Source of the DNA: Rhyacophila brunnea | Taxonomy: Eukaryota; Arthropoda; Insecta; Trichoptera; Rhyacophilidae | NCBI GenBank assembly: GCA_022495005.1 | Contig: JAGYXB010000196.1 | Span: 124,001 to 188,000 of the forward strand | DNA: 64,000 nt | Direction of reading: 5' to 3' | In this document: piece after piece, positions 1 through 38,600 of the stretch | Layout: every line of letters begins with the position of its first letter | How positions within the stretch are numbered: the stretch's first letter is position 1 | The notes under the pieces: generated by a model | Database searches by the model: none | What the model was told of the DNA's origin: nothing | The model's input: only the letters and a program-made list of their open reading frames with translations | Position numbers and translations under genes: made by a program

Positions 1-172
1 GCACTATGCGGGAACCCAAAGTCTCCATACGAGAGGGGTTTCATACTGATGAAGGCGTATAGGAACACAACCAACATGAGAATTGGTGTCACGATTCCCC
101 AACAGTATCGCCAGTAGACGGTCACCTTGCGATTCGTCATGAACTCCAGATCTTCACAGAAGTTTTCCAATC
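1..172 (-). CDS. Transporter exon: IL5 and TM11, runs off window
   Basis: Starts after an acceptor whose AG is at 174-173 and completes a glycine codon left by the upstream exon (phase 1). It reads LENFCEDLEFMTNRKVTVYW, then a hydrophobic segment with WGIVTPILMLVVFLYAF, which is TM11, and then SMKPLSYGDFGFP. No donor is reached, so the exon continues outside the window. The EFMTNRK-type intracellular loop before TM11 is typical of SLC6 proteins. Confidence 0.92.
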
Positions 173-3100
173 CTGAAAATCGAACTGGATATTAAGAACT
201 ACATTCTTTCAAATTGGTAAAAACGGTGACGTCCCTCAGGATAGTTTACCTAGAAATAGATACCTAGAAATAATTCAAAATAAAATTTCGAAATAAAGTT
301 ATATCAAAGGTTGGCGACCAACTTGCAATCCACCGCCCTATCCTCAACATCTTAAGTAGCCAAGTGAATCTCTTTTTACATAAATTATGCTTCTGCTGTT
401 CTATACCTTCCCCTGCATTATGATTTGGAGTAAATTACCCTTCTTAAATTCATAAAATATTTACAAGGGTGGCCCGCCAAATATTTTTGATTTCAAAATT
501 GTCCCTTTGACGAAAAAGTTTGTGAACCCCTGGTTTAGTGTAACTACTGGAAATATTTAATTCTGCTATTAATATTACAGAAAAAAGAAATATTATCATC
601 ATATATAGGGAATCCAATCCCGAGCCAAAATTCTGATCCCTGGATTTCGGGATTACAATTTGACAATCCCGGGATTGGGATTTTTTTCAATTGTTAATAT
701 AAAATTTTTATATTTATAAATAACATTGATAAAATCGGTCAAAAATAAATCTAGTATAATTTATACTATTTAAGACATTTATTGTTAATATTGTATATGT
801 TCAATCTTGGAAATACATAAGTTGAATGGAGTAAATAATATTGTAATATAAATAATAATGTGAATTTAATATGAGATTGCTGTTTCTGATAGTAAAGACT
901 TAATGTATGGGTTAGCGAGATTTAAAATAGTAAAGCAAATCATGGTGTACTTATGGCCTTTCCGCTTCATAAATCTAATTAGTCATATTTTCGCTTTTAT
1001 TTTATTTTCCATAAAAATTGATAAAAAAATCGATCCCCAAAGTTTCGGGATTATGTTTATCAATCCCGGGATTCATAGGTATCGAAAATAGCTCGGGTTC
1101 CCGGGATTGGAATCCCTAATCATATATCACTAATAAACTAAAATATGAAATTGTTGACACAATATAAAAAAATGAATGACCATAATATAATAAAACGAAA
1201 TTACCATATATCCAGAAAACACCAGTGATCTCAGCTATGGCCAATCCGAGGATCAGGAAAGTCCCTCCATACTGGTCAACGAGAGTCAGGATCCACTGTC
1301 CTCCCTACACAATGAAATAAAATATATTACTTTCAAACATTTATCCATATGCCATATAATTATCAGTGGCGAAGGGTGGAGGTAGGCGGTTAAGATAAGC
1401 TATAAATAGTGCACACTAAACTTTGTCTGGCTACGTATTTGTTTTCATTGAAATAAGACTACAATTTACAGACGGTGTTGGGTAGTTTTTAAAATTCATT
1501 GAAATCACGTCAGGAGTCAAGCAACGCTGTGTACTTGCGCCCTTTATTTTCATCATAATGCGTCACCCTGCATCGGTGCTACAAAAGCGATCTACGCGCT
1601 GCAGGTCTGGAATGGCGGGAGGTGCAAGAGTTGGCGATGAATCGAGGGAAGTGGCGCAAACTTATGCTTGCCCTATGCCTCAACGCTTGATCGTGACAGG
1701 GTGAAAGAAGAAGAAGAAACCATGCGAAACCAAGCCATAATAAATAATAGTAAAAATAATTACAAGATAAAAATAACTTTTTATATACAACGTTTTTAAA
1801 TTTTCTGTTGAATCATATAAACTTGACTTGACTAGCTTAAACGATCAAAAAAATTTGTACTTGATACAAATACTGAATAATGAAATGTCATTTCATATTG
1901 ATTTTCATATAACGCACGTATATATTAATAATTTAGTTGCTAGGACCCCAGACCCCTAGCAACCAATAATGGTGTCGAAATGACTTTTCATACAAAACAG
2001 AATTAACTGAAAATGAATTCAATTCTACCTAAAGATAGCTAAAAGTATTAAAACATGCATTGACATCGTGTTCTGATATATTCTAAAAGTTTCAAATGTC
2101 TAGCTAGTCGGGAAGTTAGTTAAAAATTGATTGCAAGATTTGTACCGGACAAATAAGAATACGAGCTAAGAAAAACATCTAAAATTATGAAATTAAATCA
2201 TACATAACTTTGGATATTTTATAGTTAGAATAATTAAGGCAGGGCTTAATGAATTTAAAAAAATTAACCAACACTATGTGCAATATGTATTCTTAGTCCA
2301 ACGAAAACAAATAACTATGAATGAAAAAGTGTGCACATATCTATCGTATCGCCCAAAGTATATCAAAACTATTATAATTTGGTTTAGGCAGGGTTTAATT
2401 GATTTTTAAAAAACTAACCAGCACCTTCGATAAATTGTAGTCTTAGTTCAATAAAAACAAAAACGTATAACTAATAAAGTTTAATGTGCACGATTTATGG
2501 CGGATCTTATCAGCCTACGTCCACCCTTCGCTACTGATATATTATATATTATAGGTATATTATATACACACAGACGATTTCGCTTAAGAGCGTACATAAG
2601 TGAAGCGGCAAATAATTTTCAACTGTATGTAGAACGAAATTACGGCCGCGTTGTCATTTGGAGAGCGATAGTCGAGGCGCCTGCACGTCGATTCGTTTTG
2701 TCATGGCTTCGGATGAAAATATTCTTAAATCGTGTAAAGATGACTAAAAAACTTTACGTATGTACTTAAAAAAGAAAATATGTCAATGAATATACTATTA
2801 TTATTACGAATATAATAATACATAATATAAAAAGGACGCATGTTGAACTTTTATGACAAATTATATTTCGTTCGGCTTCGGTCATTTGCACCCGCGACCC
2901 GCATTCCGCGCATCGCTAGTCGCGATCTTTTTATACCATGCCTCAGCTGAGGTATAGCCACTACCAGAAATCCTCTAAATATTATGTGGACCGCGAATAA
3001 TTCGCGCAATTATTGCGCTTCATTATCGAATTATCGATTGCGTTTTTATTCAATTTGTATGACTGACAAAGTTTAGTGTGCACTATGTATGTCGAATCTT

Positions 3101-6100: not shown

Positions 6101-9100
6101 TTTGATATTATGAAATTATTGGAAAACCAATAGTGCCACCCTCGTCGGTCGATTCCGTCAAAAAATATTGTTATTTTTTTTATTTATAGCACCTGTACAC
6201 GTGCATTGATTTACTGGCAACGATAGCGTGTAAATTAAACTATCGCTACAATAACTACGTATAGCGCCTGTACACGTGAATGGATTTACTGGCACCAATA
6301 GCGTGCAAGGTAAATTAATCTATTGCTATAATAACGGTTAACACACAAAAGTTCAAACTGTCTCGCCAATCTCATTCGTTAAGCGAATGCGTTTGTTGTC
6401 GTTGTTGTTGAAAGGTTGTAAAAATTGGTAAACGTCAAAATTCTCTGCGTGGTATTGTTCGTATTTTTCGGCAGGTTCGCCACTATCGTTTTACATATTA
6501 TCGCACACAACTATTATGTGAAAATTCAAAAGCCGTTAAACTTTTATGATCCATACATAAAGTCATTCAACTTGCACGATAATACGTGTTTCCATTTGCA
6601 TTTTACCACGTTATTATTAGCTCGTATTCTTGTTTGTCCGGTACAGATTTTTTCTGGTGCAATACAATTTTTTCTTGTTTGTCCACGATTTTTAACTAAC
6701 TTCCCGACTAGCTAGACATTTGAAACTTTCAGAATATATCAGAACACGGCGACAGTGCATTCTTTTAATACTTTTGACCATTTTTAAGCAGAATTGAATT
6801 CATTTTCAGTTAATTCTGTTTTGTATATTTCGGAAAAAATTCGTTAAAAGTAATATTTACTACTCACAATTTTTGGTTGCTAAGGGGGTCCTAGCAACTA
6901 AATTATTAATATATACGTGCGTTACTATGGAAATCAATATGAAATGTCAAAATGACATTTCTGTATTCTATAATATTAAATGTATTCAGTATTTCTATCA
7001 AGTACAATAAAAAGTTTTTATTAATACATAGAATTGTCAAATTTATATGATTCAACAGAAAATTTAAAAACAAATGTAAGTATATAAAAAGTTCTTTTTA
7101 TCTTGTAATTATTTTTGTTATGGTCGGGAATGTAAACAGACTATCACTTTATTTGAGGACAGAGTTTACTGATATTCATGATATGAACAAAAAATCATAT
7201 TCCTGTAAATGACCGACACTCGACGGTCCACTTACCGGTGTGATGTAGACGAGGCCAACGATGAATCCTGTAAGACAGCACCCGAGGGATATCTGCCAGT
7301 AGCGAATGTTTCTGAACCTGTCAGCCATCACCGTGACGATCGTGCTCTGGAGAGATACAGCGCTTCCAAGTCCAAGAACCAGCAGCATGAGGAAGAATAA
7401 CACGGCAAACAGCTGAAAAAAAAAATTAAGATTCATCAGAAAATAAACAATATTGAGTCACTGAATTTATTTGACAACACATAAAAATAATGACGACAAT
7501 TTAAAGTATTAAATAAACGAGGGCAAAACACGAGATAAATAAAAAAAACAACAACAATTTAACTTAAATTATTTGTCTTATATGTCGTCATAATATAAAT
7601 ACTGCAACAAGGTCACTCCTGTTTTATAAAGATGAAGAATTTCAAATCTATCATTATTGAAGAGGTTCTTTCTTGTGTGCTACTACAGCCTGAGGAGTAC
7701 TTCGACCACCCCAAACATAATCTTATCATCTTCCCAATCATCGGCTCCCTTCCTCGAATCGATCACTAATAGGGCTTACAACTGTTTCTGTAGAAGTCGT
7801 GTTCTTCCCGCACTCCTTTCATCTTCTGGACCATTTAACTTGAGGCGCTTCATCAGTGTTTGATGATGCAAAGTATCAAGTGCCAGGCCCATGGCAAGCG
7901 CATGGTTTTGATACATCTAATGATTCAGGATTATCAATTAATAACTTATGCCGCATTCTCACGATTTTTCCGTTCAACTGTCAAATTTATGTTGAATGTT
8001 TAACAATAATTCGAAAGGAATGATCCACCAGTGGTGTGCGATTCATAGATGCTCATTTTTATTGTGCAAATCGTAGGATAAAATTGTACTTAACTTTACT
8101 TATAAACTATTTCTTTTTATTTAACGAATAATTCAAAAATTTTAAGAATGCACCTTTCTAATTATATAATTCAAAAAGACACCCGGAAGGAACCGGACCC
8201 GCGTCTCTTGGATATCGCGCCCTTCGCATTGCCACTATGGTACGACTGCCATCTTTCCAGCTCTTTTTCTTTTTCAGTTTTTCCTTCAGACCCACGACGA
8301 AGAGCCATGCGTAGGGATTGCAATACCGAATGAAAATGTCAATACCGATTATCGGTATTTTAATACTGAATACCGGAATTAATACCGATATTCGTTAAAA
8401 TATTTAAAAAAGAAGTACTTATCAGTAAATATAACTATTAAAATTATGTTATATCAAAAACCTACCTACTTACATATTATATTATGTAAACATTAAAAAA
8501 AATTAACTAAAGCCTTCAATTTTATTCAAAATTCAAATAAGTCTGGCTGCAGGAAAAGCTTCTTAACTTCAACGCTTATACAATCATGAATAATTTTATT
8601 ATATAACAATTGAACATTTGTCATGGATATTTTCTATTTCGAAATAATATTATGATAATTTATATTTTATATAAATTATTACAATTATATATATATATTG
8701 GATTAATTGTATTTTGTTATTATTTCACCTCTATGCAGTCCATATATTTGCATTTTAGCAGCACATACCTTATAATTCACTATCAACAACGTAAACGAGT
8801 GTGCTTTCTTAATACCGAAAATTCCGATATTCTGGATTTTTAAAACCGGTATTTCGGTATTTATAAATACTGGAATACCGGTTTTAAAATACCAGTATTG
8901 CAATCCCTAGCCATGCGCTCTTTGTTTATAGGTATACAAACGCGAATACTATAGATGCCGAGGAGAATAGGCCGTTTGGCCTTGTTGCCTCATATTATAC
9001 CTATATATAATTGAAATTGTTCGTTGTCAGTATGTGTTTGCCTTTGATGAGTATACACAGCGCCTGAAGAACTAAAGAACTAAACCCGGGTCACGAAAAA

Positions 9101-12100
9101 CGACTCAAATGGAATAGTACAAAAATTAAATCCATTAGAATTGTAATATCATTAAGAGTTTTAGTCAGCTAGACTTGTACGTCAGTTTATACTCGGTTCG
9201 TGCCCCGCTACAATAATCATCCAGGCATCTCAGGAACTCTTTTCTCTCTCCTCCCAGTCAGTCGCAGCGAATCTCTTTGTATCCCTCTTGGTGTTGTACA
9301 TCCATCTACTCTGAGGGCAGCCAAGGGTCCATCGGCCTACTGCGGTTCCTTTGTAAATATTGTCCGCTAATGAACATCAATTAAAATTGTTGTCATGAAA
9401 ATAATCTAAAGTCCAGCTTACCTGTGGTACCCAAGTGAACTTGGAAATGGCATCAGGGTATGAAATGAAAGCAAGACCAGTTCCGCCAGCTCCAATCACT
9501 TTGCCAATGTCAGCTTCCCCCTTCTCGTGAGCGAGGTTACCCAGGATCCCAAAGATTGTGAAACCAGCCAGTAAACTGGTGAAAGTGTCAAGGGTTGTCA
9601 CAATCATGGCGTCCCTAAAGATATTCACATTATTTTATGATTATTGTTTTAAATTTTGTTTAATTACCTATTGATTTTCAAAACTAGCGATAGTACTTAC
9701 ATTGTTATTTAACGAGTTTAATTTAATTATTTACAAAATAATACATATACCTATTAGTAAAAAGGTACTTTACTACTATAAATTTTCATAACTATTTATA
9801 TACATGGGGGTTAATTCTGAAATGGATCAAGTCTACTAAATCAAAATAGCCTGCGTATGGAACAAGTGACTGATAAAAAACATGTCCTGATTTACAACCT
9901 TTACTAAAAACATTTGGTTGAATAATACAAATTTTACCAACCAAAATACGGATCAATATTATCCCATTGTCGATTTATCGTCAAATGTAGTGTTTCAATT
10001 CGTATGCTTTATCAGTGGTGAGGGGTGGAGGTAGATTGTTAAGATCAGGCATACTTAAATAGTGCACACTAAATGAATACGTGTATTAATTAAGGCGCTA
10101 AGTACCAAAAAAATAAAAACTGACATTTTTATAGAAAAATGTTCGACATACCAACGCCAATAACTTCAACTATAGTCAAAGTGCCTCAAGCAAGTCAAAA
10201 AAATACAGCAAAATAATTAAACCTGTCGACATTGTAAGTCCGTTGGCGTGTTTTATTTATAATGGTATAAGTAGCACTGCAGTGGTCAACTGCATTCAAT
10301 ATAAAATAGCTGACGATGGTGTGTTGACACTTGTGAGTTCTTAATACCTAAAATTATAGAAGCTGCCGTGATTGCTTCACACTGTAAAACTACATTTTTC
10401 AAAAGGTCTGCTTCATGAAATTTTACTGCAATGACTCGGTATTTTGTAACTACAGGCAATACTACTTTTTGGTACTTAGAGCCTTATTTAATACACGTAT
10501 TCAAATTTTGTCAGTCATACTTATTTGTTTTCATAATATAACTAAGAACACATTTTGCATATGGTACTGGTTAGTTTTTAAAATTCAATTAAACCCTGCC
10601 GAAATCAAACCATGATAGTTTAGGTATGCTATGGACGATCAGACAAAAATAGTGCACACCTTTTCAGTCATACTTTTTTTCCATTGTAATATTGTAATAT
10701 CTAAAATTATGTATAGTTTAATGTATAATTTTAAATATTTTATAGATAAACGAATATGTTTTTCTATTGTCTATTATGACTTCTATTATGGCATTTCGAA
10801 TGTATCAATATTAAATACAACTTAGTTTGACGTAAACGTCATAAAACGTATTTTTTTTTTGTTTAAATACCAGTTGTTCCAAATTTGAATGAGACATTAG
10901 AATAAAGTTGTGATTATATTAAGCTGCACGACGCATAATGTCACGCTGTCACGGCAACAAATTTAGTCTATGGTTTCGTCATTTTGCAGAATATTTTGAA
11001 CGATCACCATTTCGGTAAATTCAATGATGGAGAGTGCTAACTCTAATGTATTAGTATTTTGAATTATTATTCATTAGTCATGCTAATTTCAACAGTTTCT
11101 ACGTGTACGTGCGTTAAAATCACTTGCGATATTATATCCAAACATAATAATATTTTGAATAGAACCCAACCTGCAGACCATATATAAGACACAATATTTT
11201 TATAGAAAATACATAGTGCCAACCAATGACATTACTATGGACGAAGCATCTGGGAAAAAAAATGACACTCACTTTATTTGTCGGGTCTGCCGAATGACAT
11301 AATCTGTTCTAACGCCATTACAATAAAGGTGATATTGCTATAAATTTCCGAAACTTTTTGTCGGGTCTGCCGAATAGTTCGGTTCGAACAGGTTCGCTCA
11401 AACGAACATTGATACTAGAAACACTGTTCTAACGCCGTTACAATAAAGGTGATATTGCTATAAATTCCCGATGCGTGATATCGCATAATGATACTGCGTG
11501 ATGTCTACCTATACACGTGCGAATGTCACTATGGGCGAATTTACTTGCTAGCTACTGTACTGAATGCGTCGTCCATTAATAATGTCATTGGTGCCAACCG
11601 CTAAAAACAAAAAACACGCGATTCTGACATGAATCTAAAATGTCTAGGTATGTAGAAAATGATAAAAAAAATGTTCATTGAGTCATGCAGGTGCCGATGC
11701 AGTGCAGTACAATGTGAGGTGACTTCATTGTTGTTCTGGTGATTTTGGCAGATTTTGCTACCTCACAATGTTCGTTTAAAGGTTCAAATATGCTACGGGA
11801 TGGGAGCATCAGTCTCATAACATTTTTAATACCAAGAAAAACGACATTACACACTTTTTTCCCCGTAGCGGCAGCTTACTGTGACATCACGTGATAAAAC
11901 ACGAAGTGCATTATAATAATATATTTGACACTTAAAACAATTCTACGAGCACACTGACATCTGCACCGACAACGTTTTTACTATAAGTATATTATAATTA
12001 TACCATTTTTTATTAATATAATATACGAGGTTAATAATATGCACTTTATTTCATCATTTAATAAAATTATAATGTAATCCTCACCTCGCACTACCAACTG

Positions 12101-15100
12101 TGAAGAATAATTGGCTTTCGCAGCGCTATTGCTTGCAACGCAAGTGTATGTCCCGCTGTGCATTGAGCTGTGACTTACTGTGACGTCACGTGATAGTACG
12201 CGACATGCATCTCAATGTAATCACAACTTAATAGTTTGTAATTAATAAATCACAGTTGTAATTAATAATAATAATAAAAATCACGTCTTGACCTATTTCA
12301 GATCTAACACCCCAATATGTATATTTCAAAAATGATTAAAAAATTAAAGTTATTAGATATTCTAATACATTATCCTCAATTTCTAATCTAACTAAGTAAC
12401 ATTTTATGTAGCAGAAAGATCTCTTAGCAATTTTAGTTAGTGCTATAATAATTGCATCATTAATCAAATATAAGCACAGTACATAAAACACATTGTTAAA
12501 ATCACAAATAAAACATATAAAAAATGTAATTTTAGTTACAAAAAGTGTAATTATTGATTGATCTGGCGAAAAACCAACACTAATATAAAACATGCAACGT
12601 GCTTTGTGTGATCGTTTTAAAATATGCTTAGGATATCCTTCATACAACAGTGTATCAACTATTATACGTATCTGTTCTGGCAGAACACACTAACTGGAGA
12701 ATACTAGTTTTGAGTAATTTGACTTTGAAGTTGTTAAAATGTTTGAAATGGTCTATCATGTGAGTTTATTAAGTAATCCTAAAAAGGATTACTTTAAAAT
12801 AAATACTGTTTATTTATTAAGAAGGTTTCCAGACAGTAAAGTTTGAAATAAGGAAAATTTTGGTATAACTAACTCAATATGTCATTTTTTCGAATTAGTG
12901 TCTTCTGCCAGAACAGTGACGATAATATAGTAGTAATAAGATATAAACACAAGAATCTGTGCCTCCTGCATGACATTAAAATACCGCCCTGTATTCTGTT
13001 ATTGACAAAATTAAAGTAAGTACATTGAAACTGTGTGTACAAAAAGACAAAAATATTTTATTGTATCGAATGGCTTTTTCTCAGTTTCTATTATTTTTTC
13101 AAATCATTAAAGTTGTATAACATGACTTTCAAAGGATATTATAAAAAAAAATGTGTTGATTAGGGGATTTGAGGGATAAATATGTCAGTGGCGTGCGCTT
13201 CGTAGATACCGTGGATGCAGCGCACTCCTTAATTATTCCAAGATATAATATTATCCACAAAATCAATAAATAATTTTAATGACATACTACATGTCCGATA
13301 TTGCTTCATACGAGAGCAAATTTGGTGTTATCTCTTTAATGCTATGCAAATAGTTCCCGTCATAATCTGTCAAATTAGAATAGTTGAAGTCACAAAAAAT
13401 AGGTTTATGATTTTGAAAAGCATACCCAATCTCAAGGACATCACACACAATTGAAATATATATTTCTGATTTTCATGAAACCATTTAATAGAAATAACAT
13501 TTATTTTCCACGCGTCCACAATCACTGCGTACCTTTCAATTAATTTTTAATTACCTCATTTAAATAACATGCTAATTGCATCTAATGGCCGTTTAACGGG
13601 GACACGGCAGCCGTGTCGTCCGCGTTGAATGAGTTTTAAGTTGTATGCCATTTTGACTGGATAGTGTCATGTTTGTATAGAATATAGATAAATTCGAGCG
13701 CTAAAACCCAGTATACTCAGGATAAGTTACTAAGATGTAGCAAAGCATTGCCATAAGTGTGTGGAAATCAAAGATATGTAAAATGTAGAAACAGATTAAA
13801 ATGTAGAAGCTCTGCTTCACTTACCTGTAGACATTGTGTGTAAACTGGTTGTATGAAGAAAACATTAAGACAGCGCCCACACAGACGGACAGTGAGAAAA
13901 AAGCTTGAGTAACAGCTGCGTACCATACCTACAAGAAAATCCCAAGTAAATCACACTGGCAGCGGCTTGATAATGAAGCAAACACTTTTCACACTGCAGC
14001 CATCGAAGCAATATAATAAGCCAATATATCTGCTCTGTAGGTATTGTCGTAATATTATAAGTCTCAAATCTCAGAGGAACGAACCCTTAGATGAAAATAT
14101 AGCACATACTGAGGAATCCTTCAATTTTTAACGATATCGTAAAATTAATCACAGAATTGCAACTTTTTAAACGCATATATCCTAAACTACGTGTGCACCT
14201 TTTAATTAAAAGCTTATTTAATTAAAATATTGTCCTATTATAATTAATAAACCAATTATTTTACGCCACACTATATTAAACTAATCTATCAAAATGAAAT
14301 ACAATAAATGTATATCTTTCTAAAGACTTGTTTACACGGACGTAGTATCTACTAATTATTATAACTCACTTATCGCACTAGCCACTAAGCCTATTAAAAC
14401 GAAAATAGTAGTACATTAAGAAATACAAAAAAATACGCTTATTTTTGTCACTAAACAAATTAGGCGGTTTAGATGTTGCGACAAGATGCGAATTCGACTG
14501 GATTTAAGACTTGTTTACACGGGCTTAGTACTAAACATTAGTACTTGCACTAATACCGAGTATATATATGTATATACATTTATATATTTCATAATTCCAC
14601 TCACATTCGCAACGTATCGCAACGTGTAACTAGTGTTAAGTGACAAAAATTAAGAATACAAGCAAAAGTATGCATATTGTGCATTTTCTATTGTGCTACT
14701 AATACGCTTTTACTTATCAACTCATTTAAGCTCTACTCAGCGATTGAAGTAGCTTAGTAGCTAGCGCTACTAGCGAGTACTAATTATTAGTACCAAGACC
14801 GTGCAAACACGCATCTACCGCTGCAGATAGACGGCATTGCAGTGGGCGTGCGTAGACGTGCATCGACACAGGTTTTTATTTGATCCTAATTACATTCGAT
14901 TAGAATCGCCAATTGAATTTGTTTTATCCAATTGGAATCAAATAACACCCTGCGTCGACGCAATTAATATAACGCTCGTAGACTCTATGCTGGGATACGT
15001 ACTGACGATTACATAAATAGGATAGGTCTCTATTCACAAGCACTCACATATTATTAATTTAACCTGTTTACACGTGACGGTATTAGTAAGGGTAGCGAGT

Positions 15101-18100
15101 ACTAATAATTAGTACTAAGCTCGTGTAAGCAAGGCATTAGTTTGAAAAGCGATCAACTTTTATAATATATATATATATATATTGAATCAGCGTAATATTA
15201 TATTATGTAGGTATGTATGTATGTTGTAAATATAAACATTATTAAATTGTTAAATTAAATTAATTTATACAGTGAGATTTCATTGTTTTTAAGAAAATCT
15301 TCTATCTGAAGGCTGTTTTTTTAGAGGTGTAGAACTTTAAAATTAAATAAAATAGATTTGCACCATTTGCAACCGTTGTTCTGGCGTAAGTCTATTCGTG
15401 GTAAAATGGCAAACCAAATTGACCACAAACCAGCTGTCAGTTGTCAAATTGGCTGTCGCTATAAAAAGTGTTGCCAATTTGAAAAACAAACATCTAAAAC
15501 AATACCCGTTACTAGGGATGTCATAAATTATTGATATTTTTCTTTCGATATGTCACCTATACCAATATAAATTTAAATGTTTTTCATATTATCACTGGCA
15601 AAATCTTTTGATATCAATATTTTTTTCCATCTTTTACAATTACTTTAATTACATTTTTCGATTAACAAACCCGATACCTACAAGTATCAATACATTTGTT
15701 TTGATGCCGAAACTAATATGTTTACTGTTCCTTCTTAGTGATTTCGCAAATGAATGCTAATTATATAATTTTTAAAATTCATAGATACGGGTTTCGTTTT
15801 TTCCATAGCTCTGAACGAAATGTCATGTATTAAATAATATCCCAAAAAATTATCATTACTTCGAAACACTATTACTTTAATCCACCAAAGTAATCATTAT
15901 AGAAGCATTTTACCTACAATGTAAACATGTTATTATCATAATGTATTTATAAATACATAAGGTATTTATTTTTCACAGAAAAGTTTTTAAAAAAAATGTT
16001 ACTGGGTGATTTCGTGTTGTAGACAGCAGCCATATAGGAAGAGCTCATTAGTCATCGGTTAATTCTGTATTTCCGTTTTGCTGTGTATAACTCTAAAGTT
16101 ACGCGCCATTATTTTCGAATTAGCAATACAAAAAAAAAACACTCACGTTACGACAGTGAAAAAAATCAATATTAAAATATGACAACACACGAAAATCAAC
16201 AAAAAGTACTTACTCGTCTGGTTTTATATTATCGATATTGTGGGCCTGATCACACTCTCCGAAATTGCGGGAAAACGTTTAGTTTCCTCTGAGCACAATA
16301 AATGTATTAGTATTATATAGACAACGACACGATATTAGTCTTCGACAACTTTAACTAAGAGGACGCAATACTTCGGAGATACTCGCATAGCCCTCCTATA
16401 TATTGTTTCGTTCGACAATAATTAATAATGTAGTGTTGTTTATACGCGTATCGAAAACACTAGAGATTGCAATTTGGGACAGATCTTTTATTACAGACCT
16501 ACAAACTTATCTGAACAATGGGATGGTGGAGCCACTGTCGAAAACTACCCAATCAATACTCGTAACTGGACAAAATCTGTCATTTTCAAAATGGCATCCT
16601 ATGGTAGTTCGTAGTTCCATTTTTGGCCATTCTTTAGATAAGTTTGTAGGTCTGTACTGGGATTCTTATTTTTGAATTCTGAATTGTACAAAATCAAGTG
16701 AGATTTAACAAAAAAAACATACTTACAAGATTTTTTTTACTTTCTTTATCGATAATTTAGTAAAATTTCAATATTTTTATATGCAGAAACTAATCGTTTT
16801 CTCTAAATTAACTAGATAGTTTAGAAGAAAAATAAATTATGTTTTTTTTTTCATAAATCATATCGTCGCCCCAAAAGTAAAAGGGCACTTGTGTAAAAAT
16901 ATTGTTTTGAGAAAAACGCATTTTAAGTGAAAAAAAATCCTGAGGAGGCAATTTTTAATATTTTGAAATGAAATTCAGAGCACATGTGACTTATTACTCA
17001 AAGATTGAAATACATTTTTTTCATATCTTGTGAAGATTCTTGTCACACGGGGCCCTTTTTCTGCAACAAAATCTTTTTTTTGTACAAAGGCCTTTACACA
17101 TTTTAAAATAATTACACATAGTACCTTTTTCTTATACTAATTATTTTTGTAAAAACTGCACATAGACTGTCAAAGTCGTGTACATGTTACGTTTTTATTA
17201 TACGTTAATTGAAAATTAGATTACAAATACACAAGTGACCTTTATTTTCTTTTGTAAATTGCAATTTCATGGATTTAGCTCCATAAATTCAATTTTACCT
17301 ATAATGTAGAGGAAAAAAAACTACATTCATAAGTCAACCATCAAAATGTCACAAGCGCCCTTTTGGTTTTGTGATTATATATTGATCCTTAAATCAAATT
17401 AAAATCGAATCAAAAATCAAATCACATTATTCGAAGCCATTTAATTATACATATTGGTGTAGCATGGGACAGCAGAAACGCATCTCTTTTCCGTTTCCGC
17501 AATTCCGCTCGGAGGTGCCAGACCCTAACAATGGATACGAAAATCATTCACTTTTGAAAATCGTGTGGTCGCCCTAAATTCTAAAACGTTTTATTACCTA
17601 CCTAATAATTCGAAAATTTATATACTTATTGAAAAAACAGCGACATTGTTGGCTCGGAAATTCAGTGTTTAAAAGGGTAATTTTCCGATGATATTTCTTT
17701 AGAAAGTTCATCCATGTGATTACAAACGCACATTAAAAAAACTAAATACAGACCTACAAACTTATCTAAAGAATGGATGGGGAGCCACTGTAGAAAACTA
17801 CCCAATCAAGACTAGCAACTGGATAGAATCTGACATTCGAATGACGTTTTCGAAATGGCGTCCATATGGAGTTCGTAGTTCCATTTTTGACCGTTCTTTA
17901 GATACGTTTGTAGCACTGTATACATATACATATTATGAATTTACCAGACACTACATTCGAACGCGGGCACCAACATTTCAGCATTTTTTTTTAAATTTTA
18001 TAATTCTAAATGACTAATATCATTGTTATGTACATATTATTTAAAGATACGTTGTGTAGGTACACAAGTCAGTTAATTATTGTACCTATATAATTTAAAA

Positions 18101-21100
18101 AAATGTTATTAATATTTCTCTCGAAGGATGTTATTGCTTTGTAGAAAAAAATAGTTACCTTGTCTAATATCAGACTAAAATATAAATAATCTGTTAAAAC
18201 GGCACATACAAGTGGTTAATCCATGGTTTTTTTTTTAAATTCATTTTTATTATTTTAAATACGATTTAATTCTAGACATTAACCGGTTTTGAAATGCTGC
18301 GAAACAACAAAATAATGGTCTTTTTTTCACTTTCAACTTCTAAAAACATCAATATTTAAATTGATTTTGATTTTTTAATTTCAATTTTAGATGACACCAG
18401 TGGCTAAAGGTGGAGGTAAACTTTTAAGAACCAACATAAATAGTGCTCACTAAACTATGCCAGTCAAGCGTATTTCTTTTTATTGAACCAAGGTTACAAT
18501 ATGTATATAAAGTTTATTAGATTTTAAAATTCAATTGAACCCTGCCTATTCCAAGCCATAGTAGATAATGGTCAAAAATATTCATATATCTATAAAATAT
18601 CGAAACCTATGTCATTAAATCATGCATAATTTTGGATAATTTATAGATATAAGAATATTAATTGGTTTAGGCGAGGCTTAGTGAAACTTAAAAAACTAAC
18701 CAATATCATCTGTAATATGAATTCTTAATTCAACGAAAACAAATGAGTATGACTGAAAAGGTGTGCATTATTTTTGTCGGATAGGTCATAGTATAGATAG
18801 GGTCTAGTTGAATTTCAAAAACTAACCAGTAAAATCTGCAAATTGTATTCTTAGTTCAATGAAAACAAATATGTACGACTGACGAAGCTTAGTGTGCACT
18901 ATTTATGTCGAATCTTAACAGCCTACCTCCACCCTTCGCCACTGCACTATATAGGTAAATCTATAGTGAGCTGTAGGAAAACCGATCGAAAATTAAGATG
19001 TGTACCTATTTACAATACGGAATCTTCGATTTTATTAATATCTCAATCATATATTTGTGCCCCTCGGTAGAGTAGTGCTAGAGAACCCGTTTCTGAATTC
19101 GTGGATTCAGGAACAATAAGTTGTATAGTCTGGCAAAATCACAATATGTAGTTTATTAAACGTATATTTGATCTATATCAAAGAGTCAGTGGCTAACAAC
19201 TAGGGATTGCAATACCGGCATTCAATTATTTATCGATACCGAAATACCGGTTTCAAAAATCCAAAATACCGGTATTTTCGGTATTAAGAAAGCATATGTT
19301 AATGAATTTAATGTTATTTTTTCATTACTTACTACTATACTGTATGTTATTAAGTTTTATGTTGCCAGAATGCAAATATACTAAAACCAACAAAAGTTAA
19401 ACAATATTAAAACGAAATCCCTCATATACCTACATATACTATAAAACTGCCGCAATCAATTAATGTATTAAAAAAAAAAAAAAAAAAAAACATCCGTTGC
19501 AAAAATTTCCAATTATTCTAAGTATAACTACTATTGATCCAAAGTTGATAGTACATATGAATTGAAGGTATGGGTTTACGTAGGGTGTTGATTTATACTT
19601 TTCACTTATTAAAAACACTGATTCAGGGACATTAAGTTACGTTAGTATATTTCGCTTGACAAGTAACAATTAATTATTAACAACATTTTTTGTAAACGCA
19701 CGCCTTGGCGTGAAAAAAAGGTAGCAAATCGTATTTAGAGGCGATGTTCAGGGCTCAAGGGTGGTAACCGACTGACCGTACCTGCCCTCGACCCTTCGTC
19801 CGCCCAGAAACAGATAACGGTAACTTTCTTTTTCTTTGTTTAGCTGTGCGTGCATCCTGGTCTAGCTTTGACTCATTTACAGTTACAATAATATCATTAT
19901 ATTCCCAAATCTGTCGATTGGAGGATTTTTGATGAGGGATTTAAGCATTATGATAATATAATAAATATTATTTGGTATCAATATCCAACAAACGTTGAAT
20001 TTCAGAGAGATTTTTCTGTACCCGGACTTTTTTGTAAAAATTAGCAGTTCTAAAATATTATGATCTATACAAATTTACAAAGGTATACATAATAAATGTA
20101 GGTAAGTACTTTATGTTGCTATAAAATAGTATTTCAATAGTTATGTTTTTATTTGACGAATACCGGTATTCAATCATAAATACCGAAATACCGGTATTGA
20201 TATAATATTTATTCGGTATAACAATCCCTACTAAGATCCATTCGTTATGACGTATGTATCGTCACTGTTCTGGCAGAAGACACTAATTCTAAAAAATTAC
20301 ATATTGAGTTAGTTATACCAAAATGTTCCTTATTTCAAACTTAACCTTCTGGAAACCTTCTTAATAAATAAACAGTTTTTATTTAAAAGTCATCCTTTTT
20401 ACGATTACTTAATAAACTCACATGATAGACCATTTCAAACATTTTAACAACTTCAAAGTCAAATTACTCAAAACTAGTATTCTCCAGTTAGTGTGTTCTG
20501 CCAGAACAGATACGTATAATAGTTGATACACGGTTGTATGAAGGCTATCCTAAGCATATTTTAAAACGATCACACAAAGCACGGTATATATAATCACTGT
20601 GTATTTAAATATTTTAACTACGTCTTCTTTTTTCAAAATTATATTTTATAAAACCCAGTAAGCCTTACGGACAATTTATTTGAAAAGCGCTGGTTTTTAC
20701 CCTTTCGTCATCGAGTAAATGAATGAATTATGAATTAAGTTTGATACACCTTGTCTACGAATCATGTGAAAGCCTCTTTAGCAAAACTCCATTTATCCAA
20801 CTTCTAATGTGCAAGGGTGATAAAATGATAAATTTAATATTAGTAACACATAAAGCTTGTTTATCTCCCAGCCAATAAATCATGTCTACATTAAATATAC
20901 ATACCAATTATTTAATAGAAACATAATTCAGCATTATTCGTCTAGAAAGCGGAAGATCTAAAATGCACAAACCAAACAGTAAACAAATCAAACGTAGACC
21001 TGCCTCAGCTCCAACTGACCTGTAAATTTGCCCATTAAAATCGTTGTAGGTGGCGAAAATGAGAATGGGCCCTAGGCAGACACCCAACGAGAAGAAGACC

Positions 21101-24100
21101 TGTGTCACCGCTGCATACCACACCTGCGATTTGTTAGGCAAGTGTTATTTTTGCATTGTATTCCTTAACAATTTTGTTTAGTCATTTAGTCACTTACTCA
21201 GTTTTTGTTCATTTGGAAATTAAAATTACAGCGAGCTAATTTTACATCATAATATAAATAATTATATAATTGAGCACCATCATGCAAACCAGTTGATAAA
21301 TGTAAATCAGCACCTATGCGAACTGTTTGTTAAAATTGTAGTCTGACAAAATATTCAATTCTAAACTATCCTAAACGCCAATTTTTCGAAATGCGTTTTT
21401 TTACATCAATCAATTCTCTATGAAATTTCCAACATTTCTGTATAAACCTAAATGCGTAGGATTATATTGAATTTAAGAAACAAATTATTTTCACGCCACT
21501 TCTTAAATATCCTAAGTGACATTATTTGCCAATGTATTGAATTTTTCACAACTTCGAAATTGGAAAAAAAATCCCCAAAATTAATTGTAATATCTATGAA
21601 ACACAAAAAATGTTTTTTTTTATATTTCGATATTATAAAATCGAATTAAGTTCAGGTTCGTAATTTCTAAATTTCGCTTTAATGCACATTTTATGGTTTG
21701 GCGTTTAGGATACTTTAGAATTGAATAGACGAATACAGTGTGCGAAAAGAAAATGAAGACACATCTAAAAATTAATGAATTATATTATTAAAATCAACGG
21801 GTTAAATTATTGCCGTGCAATTTATTAACCTTTCTTTACAAGAACTAGTGTCTTATTCTGCCTATCCTAATTAAATTTATGTTAGACTTATCTCCCTTTT
21901 CCTTCCACACACAAAATAATCCTTATCACCTAAGGGTCGGTGTATTGAGGAAACATGTGATTAAAACCAATACATAATTGGCAACGAGTTTAAGTGGACA
22001 AGGTTTTATAGATTCTATTTAACTCTTTTTATGTTTTTTCTTTGTATAATATACTTGTATATCGTGGTGTTGCTGACAAAGGTTGGTAAGTCGATAATTT
22101 AAGTATTTAGAGTTAACAACGAATTATGTGTATATTATATTATATTAATATGTATGTTAGAAAAAAATCATTCGATATATAATATTGAATATAAAGCACA
22201 GACAAATTGACATTACGCCTGATTTTAGAGGTCATGTCTAACTTCAAACAATTGCAATTACTCCAGAACATGATTTCGAGACTTACCAACTTTTGGGTGT
22301 AATCCCACGATATATTTATTTATTACACTACTTTCTTTGGGAATGGGACGACTGGCATCTGGACAATTGGACGCCGCACTGTCGTAGACACGTGTAGACG
22401 AGGTATTTTAATCAGTTTCTATCTACTACTTAGTAGTTCGAATTCATTTTACTCCTAACATAATGTATTCTTTATCGCGGACTGAGAATTACCATGCCTA
22501 AGGCTTTATATAACATAAAAAACTCTTTTTTCGTTGGAACTTAAACATATGCACGATTAAATCATTGTTTACGTCTGCATATTTAAATTCTTACCAACTA
22601 TTAAATCATAATAAAATCATTGAAGTATAAATAATAATATTGAATATTTTTTTTAAAAGTACTTATAAGTACCTAACGTCTATTTATTTTCGAATTCCGT
22701 GGCGTCCAGTTGTGAGGTGCCAAATCGTCCTAGACCCCTTTCTTTAAATGTTTATAATACTTATGTGTTATTTGCTTTATTTTGTTTTTCTTTATAACAT
22801 AGAATATTTTAAATAATGTATGAAAACATGCATTCACAAATTAATATCCTATATTAGAAACTTATTATAAAAATATGTGTTATAATTTATAATATTATTA
22901 TGAACAGAAGTAACGCTTTCCAATAGACAGTCAATAGTGAGCTGATTTAACCGGATATGCTCTTATGTCAAAAATATTTTAGAACATAATATAGTTTTAA
23001 GACTATGGATTATTTATTTTTTAATGAATGAAATATGAAGAATAGTATAATCAATGAAAATGCATTTTTTAACCTTAGAATAAATTTCAACCGTAATAGT
23101 AAATCCATAAAGTTTGAATGAAATCTTTATAAATACTAGGTAAGTACCACAACAAAAAATAGTTAGTCTCGACTTTTGAGCTTTGAAAATCGATGTCTCC
23201 GCCGAATCATAGAGGTACATTGATACGACCGCGTTGCAAACACTCAAGTTCGTGAGCAAACATGGCAGCACTCGGTGATTAAAGTAATCACGAAGAGACG
23301 CTTGACGTGTTCACGTATACACGGCACTCCGTACCCTTGTGGCATAACCTCAAAGGCGATGCAGGTCTCACATCATGATTTGAGGCGTGAGACGTGACGA
23401 TGGATCGAGGAATGTGGTGCGACCGTGTGCTTCCCAATACTGGGACGAGCCGTTCGCTACTTGCTCAACCTATTAGATCCAAGCCTATTATCGGCTCAAA
23501 CACAACATGTGAACTTTTGTTGCCAGACCCCGGATTCGAACCCGGGACCCATTATAAGCCAAGAAGTTACCCGCTCGGCTACCGTGGGCGTAAAACATAA
23601 TTAGTGAATTTATAATAATATAATCGTATCATTTAACCCAGGGGTAGTCAACCTGGGCCCCCCCGCCCACTAGTGGGCATTCCAGCTTTCATGGTGGGCG
23701 ATAGGGGTTTTAAAAACATTTTCATTATGTTTTCATCAGATATCCAGTGTTTAGTTTTGCAGCATCAGCCTCAGCGATCTCATTAATAATTTAATTAATT
23801 AAATGTAATTTCATCAGACTTCATGCTTATATGTATGCAACGTATATATAAAAAGATAGATTTAACTGCAGTAAGTTATTTCTATAAAGATTTATTCTGC
23901 CAAACTTAGTGAAAGTCTGACATAAAGTATTTGTTAAGTTATTATTATTACATGCTTTAACTTTCTGTAAATCTGCTTTATAAATTTCATAAAGTAAAGT
24001 TAATTCCCTACTTTATAAATCACCAACACTGTGGAACCGGTGGGCGGTTAGAAAATTTTACTACTAACAGAGATACAAAAGTGGGCGGTAGGTATAAAAA

Positions 24101-27100: not shown

Positions 27101-30100
27101 CAAAAAATCTATTATCGTCCAATTATTGTGATATATGAGAATATCATTATTATCACTATGAGTTGTATTGACCACTTTTTTTTACTAAAAGTAGTTTCTT
27201 TGAAATTTTTTCATTATTCAAGTTTACAGTCAATTGAATAAGTTACAACAACTATCTAATCCTGAATATTACACCAAACAAAATGTAAACAAAAACAGTA
27301 AAAACCCGTAGTTGTTCGTCTGTACTAAATTGTTGGAATTCTAATATATCACTTAACTCTAAAATCAATAAAAAAAAAAATGATAAATATGTTATGTCGT
27401 ATTCAGACAGTTAATTATCCCGGGATGTTAACTGTCAGGTGTAATGTTTTTTAACGCGGCCGGTCATAACCGCAATAACAGCGAGCTGTCAAATGTCGTT
27501 AAACAGAACAGTTAACACGTCTTACTTGATTCCAATCAGATGCATTTGGAATCAAATACGACGCAGTGCCGTGTGTTAACAATTATTAACTATTTGGAAT
27601 ACTGCCGAAGTCACTTTATGTTTAACTACAAAGCTACTTTCTGAACCTTTAGTATAAACCACCATTGCCTGCACACGACCCCAAATATTAAATACTACCT
27701 TATTTGCTAAGGATATATTATTTTAATTTATTTACCTGAGGATTGTACAACTCTTCCCATTTAGGAGTGATGAAAAATTTGATCCCTTCAATGGCTCCCT
27801 CCAGAGTGACTGCCCTGTAAAATAGCGTTATATTTCACATACATGGTATGTCACATAAAATATTATAGTGTGGTATAGTTACTAAAATACACGGTCGACA
27901 AAAGAGTAACCAACACTAATCTCACCGAACGACGATTTTTCCACTAGAAAACAAATTAACAACCTCCTCACGGCGAAATATAACTTAGTTACAATAATTG
28001 GTTAATTAGAATATTTATAATGGCTAACTTTCATAGTTCTGAATTGTCGTAGGTAGTTCGGTTTATCGCTGTTCTGTTTTGTCTCCGTTCTGTTTCTTCA
28101 TGTTCTGATATAATATCATGATCTCTTTTGTCCGGTTACCTACTTAATCATAGACAGTCGTTTACTGTTTGTAGCCTTGATAATAGTGTTTCAACCGAAC
28201 TAGCTATCGACTTAAAAAAACATCTGTAGAATTTAATATACGAGTAGCTTGGCTATTATCATTTTACGTTGATTATTTTTTTAATAACTGAATGAGTAAT
28301 AATGGTAGATAAGAAGGTTAGATGAGTTATCTCATTCACTGCGGACCTGTTAATTACTATTTAATTACCACATTTAATTAACATGCTAATAGTATCTAAT
28401 GGCCAACTAATTGAAATTAATTAATGAAAAATCGCATACAATCATAATATTTTGTTTCGGTTACCTGATGAGCAAGGCAAACATGACGACGTACGGGAAG
28501 AGGGCCAAGAAGTAGGAAGCCTTGCCTGAACTCTTCACTCCTCGCAGCATCACGAGAAAGACTCCAGTCCATGCCGCTAGCAAGCAAAGGGTTAGCCTCC
28601 AGTCAGGTGATCCTATTAACAGTGCACATACATGATTAATCAATTAATTAATTTTAACTTAATAGTCTGTGTAAAATGTAAGTCCGAGGTAAAACTGCGC
28701 GTGTATACATAGGGATTGCAATACCGGTATTTCAAAGCCGGTATTCCAGTATTTATCAATACCGAAAAACCGGTTTTAAAAATCCAAAATACCGTAATTT
28801 TTGGTATTAAGAAAGCACACTCGTTTACGTTTTTTAAAATGAATTTAATATTATTTATCCATTACTTTGTACTGTTTTGTCCATAAAATTGATTACCTAC
28901 CTATGTTATGCTGCTAAAATGAAAATATATTGACTAAATCGAGGTGATATAATAATAAAACAAAATCCATCAAATATACCTACGTATAAAATTGTCTTGA
29001 TGAACTAGCCTTTTGGAGGGCTTTAATTGAAATTACCAATATATTCAAATTATTTGTAAAAATCACCAGTTCTACAATATTATGATCAATGCATATTTTA
29101 AAATGTCAACTTAATAAGTCTAGGTAAGTAGGTAGGTTCTTGCTATATAATAATGCTTTAAAGAGATTTTAATAGCTATAATATGTACTGATAAATAATT
29201 CTGCTTTTTTTATATTGTAACGAATACTGGTATTCAAGAATAAATACCGAAAAACCGGTATTGATATTTTTATTCGGTATTGCAATCCCTATGTATACAC
29301 TAAAAATTGAGTCTCGTAAAGTAATAATAAGATTAAAAGTGTACTTGGTTTTTCATAATAATTAAACTATATAATTGTGAATAATATTTTATATAAAATT
29401 GTAATTACCTATTCCGTCGTCAATGGATGATTCCTTCTGTCTCAATACCTCCCTCCTGAAAAAAAATAATTATAAATGAGTTCAATATTGCTACAGTAAT
29501 TATAATTTGAATCAAAAACGTTATTTATAAACCAATAAATATTCTTCATTTTAAAGGCGTATCAGCTAAGCTTTCTGTCCCAGTGTGCATTTTCCATTGA
29601 TGAGTGGGCATAGTAGCGTCTGCAGAATTGTGACGCTACATTTCAAACTCAGCCATGTCCATAATGGATGAAAAGGAGAAAAACAGCTTTTTTGTTTCTT
29701 CGTGTACACGGTCATGAAGATGAAAGTTTATATTATTGCGATTATAGAATGTTTTAAATTAATAAGATCCACATTATTAGTTTTCATGTAATTTTCATAG
29801 ATTCTTCAAAAAATGGATTTTTTATATGGACATGGCTTAGTTTGTCACAAAATAAGCCAAGTCAACGCGGACTTGGCTTATTTTGATATTTACGTGGCAG
29901 CCATTTTACTAGCTATGATTGTGTCATTCTTCTGGGCTGGACTTAGGAAATGAAAAAGGGCGAAATTATAAATAAATGTTGATGATAACATAAATTTATT
30001 TTTAGAAAATTTTCTCTATATAATATTATTAACTTAAGAGGCGTATGCATAGAACAGCAAACTATATTTAAGGGTATACTTCAGTTGAGGCATGGTCCAA

Positions 30101-35651: not shown

Positions 35652-35682
<31 letters not shown>

Positions 35683-38600
35683 CACGTCTAGGTCATAATA
35701 TTAGCATATTAAATGGATGGTTTTAAAAAGGTTGTTTTCGCATTAGTAAAATAAATGCTAAATAGTTTACCCTCAATAAAAATGGATGATTTCTTATATT
35801 ATTATCATTAAACACTTTGCAGACGACATGTATCTAAATTAATTTATTGAATTTTTACATCTATTTACAGATTAAAAAATGCAGTTATACTGATAAATGC
35901 ATTAAACTCCTTGATCTAAAAGTTCACCTACCTGACCCATTATCGCTTATCTACTGTGTCAACATTTACGTTTACAATCAATTATTAATAATTAAGATAA
36001 TGTGCATTAATAATTAATAACACATTGTGTATTCTGTTTCGTTTATTAATTATTCACAATTTGACAGTTCGATGTATTCAGTCACTGATAAATATTCCAC
36101 AAAATGGCTAAATCTTATATATCAGTTCCTCCCAAGTATTTTCTTGTCACAACCATGGCCCCCACATCCTGAAGTGGGCCCCCAGACTAGGATTTTTGGC
36201 GGGCCCCCCTACCTATCGCTAAGGATAAAGGCATTGTGACGCTCCACAGTAGCGTTTTCCAAATGGTGTACTAAATTAATTAATGTGTATATTTTAATAT
36301 TTTAATCCATTTGAAATATGGAATTGTCGAGATACACAAATAAAAATTGTATCGGCCATTCGGGATTTCGGCTTTCGGGATTTCGGCTTTCGGGATTTCG
36401 GCATTCGGGATTTCGGCATTCGGGATTTCGTCATTTGGGATTTCGGCTTTCGGGATTTCGGCCTTTCGGGATTTCGGCCATTCGGAGTTTTGGCATTCGG
36501 GATTTTAGCCTTCGGGATTTCGGCCTTCGGGATTTCGACCCAAACCCGGCTGGACGCGCTACAAGAGATTTAAGAATGCTCAGTCAATGCAACTGGAGAG
36601 TATCAGCACATGGATCGTTAAGGGTTGTAATGCCATATAAATGATAATAATATGTATCCATAAATAAATTTAAAAAATGGCTTGTTTAAATCTTTGCTCC
36701 ATCGATAATAAAATATTATTACCTTTCGACAGTTATAAATAAAACATCGACGTTACCTTGAAATTTGAAGCTCAATACACACAATGTTTCTAAAAAATAT
36801 ATATAAAAGATTTAAAGCCGTTGACTTCAGTATCAATTGGAATATTAAATTATTCAAAAAAAAATTAACCCTTTAGCAGCTACGATGTTTTTTTTAAATT
36901 CCCAGTGAGAAATGCTACACTTTATAATAATTATTGTTGCTAAACAAAATTGTAGTATCATTTTATCTTACTTTTTTATTGATTTTATGACATCAGAATA
37001 TTAACACATTGCGACTGATAGTAACATCACTAGCAATAAGGTTATAAATATTATATATTACATTTATAAATGTTTTATTAATATGGTTTTAATAAAACAC
37101 ACTTGGGAATATTTCAGCCCAATTTTTTGATATCACTAATGCCTCGCGCGCGTAATTAAGTTTATCGTTTTATTGACAATTAGAAGTTTTATAATGAGGT
37201 AGGCACCTACGTAGACGTTCATATCTATCAGTGGCGAAGGGTGGAGGTAGGCTGTTAAGATTCGCTATAAATAGTGCACACTAAACTTTTTTAGTCATAT
37301 GTATTTGTTTTTATTGAACTAAGACTACAATTTACAGATGGTGCTAGTTAGTTTTTAAAAATCAATTAAACCATGCCTAAACGAAACCATAATAGTTTTG
37401 GTCTAATTTGGGGAATACGACAAAATTGTGGGTACTTTTTCATTCATAGTTATTTGTTTTCGTTGGATTAAATATACATATTACACATATTGTTGGTTAA
37501 TTTTTTAATTCATTAAGCCCTGACTAAACCAAACTATAATAAATAAAAAATATTATTCTATTTATAAAATATTCAAAGTTATGTATGATTTAATTGTATA
37601 ATTTTAGATATTTTATAGATACACATGTATTTTTTGGACTATTATCTATTATGGCTTGGTTTCTCAGGGTTTAATTGAATTTTAAAAACTAACCAACACT
37701 ATCTGTAAATTGTAGTCTTAGTTCAATGAAAACAAATATGTATGTCTGAAAAAGTTTAATGTGCACTATTTATGGCGGATCTTAACAGCCTACCTCCACC
37801 CTTCGCCACTGATATCTATAAATCATCTAACCCATAAAAGAATTGTTAAAAATTAATTAATTGTGCAAAACAAACAGAATAAAATTCGGTTTAATAATGG
37901 GGCAGTAGGAAAGTATTGAAATAAATTATCATTGCAAGAATCAGGACGTCAACAACGATCGTTGTTAGCTTTGTTATTATGAGCAACGGTATATCGTTTT
38001 TTTGCATTCAACGGGTTAAGGTCAATGTCATCACACCAAATGCAATGAATCACGCAGTTTTGGGTAGATTCTAGTAGAACTTTGTACGAGACGTGGCGTG
38101 TGATGGAGAGAAACCATGTTGTGTGCCATACTCACAAAGCATTGGGTTGGATAGCGTCTTTTTGATAAGACTCTTTTGATGGAACTAATAAATACATAAT
38201 TTATTAAAACATGACTTACAGAAAGAAGTGCTCAGAGCTACTGGTCTTATTAGTAGAATCCTCTGAGTTGTTTGACGTAGAGTAGCAGTTCGGTCCCCAC
38301 TCTGGTTTGCAGGATGCCCAGGGAAGCTCCGCCTGGAAGGACTGGATCAGGTAGAAGAGAGTCAGCGCCATCAAGGAAACATAATATGTCACTATGCACG
38401 TCGTCCCGATGACTTGGCCCACTCCGACTCCTGTTGATGGAAATTATAGAATACATTTTAATAAAACGTCACTCTAAGTACTTAGTTTATTTGGTGATAC
38501 TGCAATAATGAGAATCCAACTATTTATTGACCGAAACGGGTGTGAAGATCACCATCTTAAGACGATACATCAGTGAAACGACAAATAATTTTCAACTATA

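Follow-up and report, generated by a model that had tools for sequence, protein, structure and literature searches.

A nutrient amino acid transporter gene with two intact TM6 exons

The caddisfly Rhyacophila brunnea carries, on the reverse strand of a 64,000-nucleotide (nt) stretch of contig JAGYXB010000196.1 (positions 124,001 to 188,000; here called the window), an SLC6 amino acid transporter gene of the NAAT1 type in which the exon encoding transmembrane helix 6 (TM6) occurs twice in tandem. We refer to the upstream copy as exon A and to the downstream copy, which is of the type common in the family, as exon B. From the genomic sequence alone, we consider it moderately probable that A and B form a mutually exclusive pair in which B would be the default, A would be regulated, and the choice between them would switch substrate selectivity.

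A and B are homologous neighboring exons of equal length (104 nt) and phase. Both have AG just before them and GT just after, are entered in phase 0 and left in phase 2, and contain no stops; each ends in TAC AG, which the first base of the same downstream exon completes to AGG (Arg). The two copies share 63 of 104 nucleotides and 21 of 34 residues, with no insertion or deletion between them, and the homology of both is beyond chance, as judged by tblastn matches of protein P0006 from the caddisfly Arctopsyche grandis in the 64-kb window (Table 1). The flanking exons gave an open coding frame when joined through A and equally when joined through B. A followed by B, B followed by A, and neither exon each met a stop in the coding frame; inclusion of A and B places the stop inside B, and skipping of both places it in the next exon. 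Joint inclusion and joint skipping thus both break the frame. The coordinates, length, phases, splice dinucleotides, and stop-free state of the two exons in the initial annotation proved exact to the base, and frame assembly bore out its statement that either exon joins the same neighbors and that both or neither breaks the frame.

The identity of the gene was established from its predicted product. The product of A and its two neighbors matched the Pfam family SNF with 136.5 bits, and the corresponding product with B also matched SNF and hit SLC6 structures, the best named of which was glycine transporter 2 (the top chain is labeled only "Transporter"). The full assembled isoforms cover positions 1 to 522 of the 524 in SNF (PF00209), scoring 533.6 bits (E = 6.9e-160) with A and 535.9 bits (E = 1.4e-160) with B. 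The gene is thus predicted to encode a member of the SLC6, or neurotransmitter:sodium symporter, family with a full-length SNF domain; sodium coupling is predicted from family membership. When the B form served as a protein query, 1072 matches were returned; most of the 120 listed were named as sodium-dependent nutrient amino acid transporter 1 of insects, and the highest identity among those listed was 85%, to P0006. In a tree of 37 rows (the window gene, one paralog, and 35 sequences chosen from 152 proteins), the window gene grouped with P0006 and the paralog (support 100/99), adjoining Lepidoptera (93/92), the position anticipated for a caddisfly gene. These results place the predicted protein in the insect NAAT1 subfamily. 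The earlier description of a tandem exon duplication in the TM6 segment of an SLC6 transporter therefore agrees with the Pfam, structure, and tblastn matches.

Only the TM6 exon is doubled

Apart from TM6, every exon had at most one significant P0006 match in the window, which rules out duplication of the whole gene or of several exons. Against the 1.087-Gb assembly that holds the window, P0006 gave at least 68 matches, with 67 of 98 candidates scored. The matches restricted to the TM6 stretch were A, B, one in a plus-strand paralog on the same contig, and one in a gene on C786. Each of these two paralogs has one TM6 exon with 104 nt between AG and GT in the stretches that were fetched (38 kb and 20 kb). 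The odd length of the exon is therefore inherited; the frame bars joint use of A and B and yet says nothing about whether A is used. Duplication of such an asymmetric exon has two possible outcomes, a mutually exclusive pair and a dead copy, between which the frame argument cannot distinguish. The proposal that A and B are mutually exclusive accordingly stands with respect to the incompatibility of their joint use; the 104-nt, phase 0-to-2 shape, which had been offered as a signature of such a pair, is not one in itself, since the single exons of the paralogs share it. A candidate second TM6 exon in the neighboring paralog (C1078:92986-93177, matching P0006 residues 288 to 352) was, on inspection, the preceding exon alone.

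The A and B exons differ at the substrate site

In SLC6 transporters, the TM6 helix has an unwound stretch at its center and lines the central substrate site, as established for LeuT. The core of TM6 reads FFSL-G-VCL-G in A and FFSL-S-VCV-G in B. The second difference, Leu in A and Val in B three residues after the Gly/Ser site, is at a position that we take to align with Phe259 of LeuT. Given the Gly/Ser and Leu/Val differences, the choice between A and B should alter the substrate range.

Two pairs of related transporters bear on this prediction. Gly309 of the A isoform aligns with Ser479 (human numbering) of the 797-residue GlyT2 chain, and the B isoform has Ser in the same column. Ser479 of GlyT2 is Gly in GlyT1, and an S479G mutant of GlyT2 gains sarcosine transport, as described in a passage of PMC8602798. 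In KAAT1, Ser308 lies in the non-helix region of transmembrane domain 6 (TMD6) and is replaced by Thr in CAATCH1, a difference likened to that between GlyT1 and GlyT2 in part of PMC8310414; the substitution S308T in KAAT1 abolished L-leucine transport (passage in PMC4759042). The Ser of the SL-S motif is residue 308 in two lepidopteran relatives (634 and 632 residues long) and residue 310 or 314 in three others. Judged by this numbering, the Gly/Ser site of A and B is likely the same as Ser308 of KAAT1. The range of residues at this site was surveyed in 135 distinct insect TM6 segments (representing 187 found in 181 of the 272 proteins fetched), with S in 96, N in 15, A in 12, T in 6, G in 5, and C in 1.

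Evidence for and against coding constraint on exon A

Differences between A and B fall 12, 4, and 25 times at codon positions 1, 2, and 3 (of 34 each). The corresponding counts are 4, 2, and 23 between B and the TM6 exon of a paralog (B2) and 11, 4, and 21 between A and B2. This distribution favors coding constraint on both copies. As third positions are equally diverged between A and B and between B and B2, the tandem duplication seems to date from about the time of the gene duplication or from before it, although third positions are saturated. In simulations of neutral drift from B (B1) or B2 to the distance of A, 21 of 34 residues were retained in 0 of 20,000 runs for each start, a comparison that loads all change on the branch of A and hence overstates the case for constraint. 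The absence of stops is less telling, with probabilities of 0.18 and 0.20 for the B1 and B2 starts. Among the surveyed insect segments, 11 TM6 positions have one residue in at least 130 of the 135; A alters one of these, from Ser to Thr, and the chance of so few changes is 0.017. Taken together with the points against it below, we judge it somewhat probable that exon A is alive and alternatively used.

Several results weigh against such use. A codon model, fitted to a four-sequence star tree with saturated branch lengths, two of them at the allowed bound, gave an omega for A of 0.108, which is not significantly different from 1 at the 5% level (p = 0.065); this omega is above that of the B exons (0.039), and equality is rejected (p = 0.036). 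Residues I22, T25, G31, and Q32 of A occur in none of the 135 distinct segments, and L17 occurs in one. When splice sites were scored with a matrix built from the window gene and its paralog (24 sites of each kind), the acceptor of A was the weakest of 24, at -0.17, against 2.58 to 13.76 for the other 23, B included. No second TM6 exon was found in the fetched stretches of the two paralogs when they were probed with A and B. Finally, and weakly, all 38 proteins of one search were nearer to B than to A in TM6, and in another, where 120 of 310 matches were listed, no TM6 segment among those listed lay nearer to A. The database used in these searches for A-type proteins was clustered at 90% and holds nearly no caddisfly proteins; because of this clustering, an A-type isoform differing only in TM6 would hide behind its partner.

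The donor of A (gtcagt) scores 8.67, 10th of 24, and B has the strongest donor of the set (12.45) and an acceptor of 7.32. The strengths of the A sites fit a minor exon under regulation and also an exon in decay. Exon A might accordingly be a relic of an old duplication, formerly used but by now skipped or nearly so, leaving B as the sole working TM6 exon. Its weak acceptor, its higher omega with neutrality not rejected, and its five unusual residues all point that way. A relic would nevertheless have had to keep its frame free of stops and of indels relative to B, both splice dinucleotides intact, and differences distributed over codon positions as in coding sequence despite a third-position divergence that is saturating. 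We therefore regard a relic as the less likely explanation, albeit the foremost rival.

The weak acceptor would equally suit regulated inclusion of A as a poison exon, whose insertion beside B would cause a frameshift and decay of the transcript and so tune the amount of transporter, the protein encoded by A mattering little. The stop that arises inside B when both exons are included, with six junctions downstream of it in the gene model, is what this function would call for. A poison exon requires no conservation of protein, however, and A retains 21 of 34 residues and 10 of the 11 nearly invariant ones, which makes this explanation improbable. More remote still is the idea that A belongs to another transcription unit, a second transporter gene that is nested or arose by partial duplication. 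NAAT genes do cluster, and a paralog is present on the same contig; against this, each of the other exons has at most one significant match in the window, and A shares the strand of its neighbors, lies between them in order, and matches them in phase.

How the two exons might be kept apart

If A and B are mutually exclusive, the 104-nt TM6 exon of a NAAT1-type symporter gene would have been duplicated in tandem long ago, and each mature mRNA would carry either A or B. B, with its strong sites, would be the default, and A would be used where a splicing factor assists it or where B is held back. The swap would exchange the TM6 segment together with a residue of the substrate site, Gly in A and Ser in B, and by analogy with GlyT1/GlyT2 and KAAT1/CAATCH1 would change the range of amino acids transported or the affinity for them. 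Transcripts with both exons or neither acquire a frameshift and an early stop in the sequence and would likely undergo nonsense-mediated decay. Since such products meet stops, they would be nonfunctional and probably decayed.

Steric exclusion is unlikely because the intron between A and B, at 7,091 nt, is too long. A 327-nt element present as an inverted pair (12598-12924 and 20257-20583; 96% alike) flanks exon B only and could loop it out. Each copy includes a shorter inverted pair, and the element is probably mobile. The window is rich in repeats, however, and contains 42 inverted pairs of at least 100 nt, the 327-nt pair among them.

A duplicated TM6 unit in a mayfly

A NAAT protein model of the mayfly Cloeon dipterum, P0007, has the TM6 exon unit twice (residues 307 to 414), with 38 amino acids between the copies. 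The match of P0007 to P0006 runs to residue 354 and then resumes from residue 319, so the duplicated unit has the edges of the caddisfly exon. As in A and B, the first copy has SLG (Gly) and the second has SLS (Ser); unlike A and B, both are held in one predicted protein, which is probably an error of the gene model. The duplication of this unit favors the mutually exclusive reading of A and B. Copy 1 shares 21 of 36 residues with B and 17 of 36 with A, which leaves a shared origin with A unsupported. Because copy 1 is nearer to B than to A, an independent duplication in the mayfly is no less likely than common descent. That insects switch NAAT selectivity by splicing, through Gly or Ser at the central TM6 site, and that this has arisen or been kept in lineages as distant from each other as caddisflies and mayflies, is a tentative proposal to which we give rather little weight.

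Relation to known systems

Mutually exclusive exons are well known. A close precedent among transporters is exon 4 of NKCC2 (SLC12A1), where the choice among homologous exons 4B, 4A, and 4F sets ion affinity, according to a passage of PMC7818487. There, as here, one exon among homologous neighbors encodes a transmembrane helix region of a secondary transporter. NKCC2 differs in being a cation-chloride cotransporter with three variants of TMD2 and the following loop, documented by transcripts and kinetics, whereas two TM6 variants are predicted from sequence here. KAAT1 and CAATCH1 of Manduca belong to the same NAAT family as the window gene, and their Ser/Thr difference in TM6 changes leucine transport (PMC8310414 and PMC4759042, in part); unlike A and B, they are products of two duplicated genes. 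Early proposals for this pair included alternative splicing; the accepted origin is now gene duplication (passage in PMC8310414). Similarly, the substrate ranges of GlyT1 and GlyT2 are considered to depend on whether Gly or Ser occupies the same aligned TM6 position (passages in PMC8602798 and PMC6166138); GlyT1 and GlyT2 are encoded by separate genes, unlike the A and B forms.

The A/B pair also resembles tandem duplicated exon substitution events, which involve homologous adjacent exons with mostly conservative changes and are enriched in genes for transmembrane ion transport (PMC9741552, in part); the main text of that article does not mention SLC6. In a burying beetle, 9 of 23 SNF loci show alternative splicing, the exons being unnamed in the passages concerned (PMC12599511). 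Among the papers listed and the passages covered, we found no report of a duplicated TM6 exon or of mutually exclusive exons in NAAT1. If A is used, one gene would encode a pair of transporters identical except for the segment holding the substrate, and exon duplication would do the job that gene duplication does in moths and vertebrates. The pair would also offer a natural segment swap for probing the role of TM6 in SLC6 selectivity. Its interest is raised by the site affected, the central substrate site of TM6.

Gene model and surroundings

By tblastn of P0006 and fitting of junctions, the gene has 13 coding exon positions, running from 49459 to beyond the low end of the window. Junction fitting allowed GT-AG introns only, and 12 of 12 gene junctions were fitted. 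Two of these, the N-terminal exon (49328-49459) and the small exon (29409-29455), had weak tblastn matches and were placed by order, phase, and splice sites. The assembled product has 644 amino acids with an open 5' end, and its first three residues are probably intronic. A Pfam scan of long read-throughs of 1-9421 and 27815-37814 found no family; the scan was insensitive, as tblastn later found exons there.

Table 1. Exons of the NAAT1-type gene in the window, in order of transcription. E values are from tblastn with P0006 unless stated; helix labels are approximate and follow what we take to be the SLC6 topology.
Feature	Position	Strand	Evidence and remarks
N-terminal coding exon	49328..49459	-	Weak tblastn, E = 0.013; 5' edge set at CAG by inspection, with no start codon assigned
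TM1-TM2, contains NIWRFP	39894..40152	-	E = 3.7e-43; junction fit
TM3 region	38220..38430	-	E = 2.9e-20; junction fit
Small exon	29409..29455	-	Weak, E = 3.1 (0.14 with P0008); junctions fit
TM4-TM5 region	28465..28612	-	E = 1.5e-20; junction fit
Exon upstream of A/B pair	27736..27814	-	Phase 0 at 3' end; tblastn, junction fit
Exon A, putative alternative TM6 exon	21020..21123	-	104 nt, VWYAAVTQVFFSLGVCLGPILIFATYNDFNGQIY + AG of Arg codon; E = 3.7e-10
Exon B, common TM6 type of the family	13825..13928	-	104 nt, VWYAAVTQAFFSLSVCVGAVLMFSSYNQFTHNVY + AG of Arg codon; E = 7.9e-16
Exon downstream of A/B pair	9422..9614	-	First base completes Arg; tblastn, junction fit
TM8 region	7236..7412	-	E = 3.3e-12; junction fit
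TM9 region	1205..1304	-	E = 2.9e-11; junction fit
TM10-TM11 region	1..172	-	E = 4.4e-20; extends 5 nt past the window, with two more exons beyond

A paralogous NAAT gene lies outside the window at C1078:82855-109841, on the opposite strand and tail to tail with the window gene. One TM6 exon was found in it, at 94870-94973, and Arctopsyche P0006 clusters with this paralog and not with the window gene (99/95). The intron upstream of A contains a match to tRNA-Arg (GCG) at 25238-25311 on the reverse strand, possibly a tRNA-derived repeat and not a working tRNA gene. At 61466-62875, blocks of about 390 to 450 nt form direct (90%) and inverted (92%) repeats that adjoin each other.

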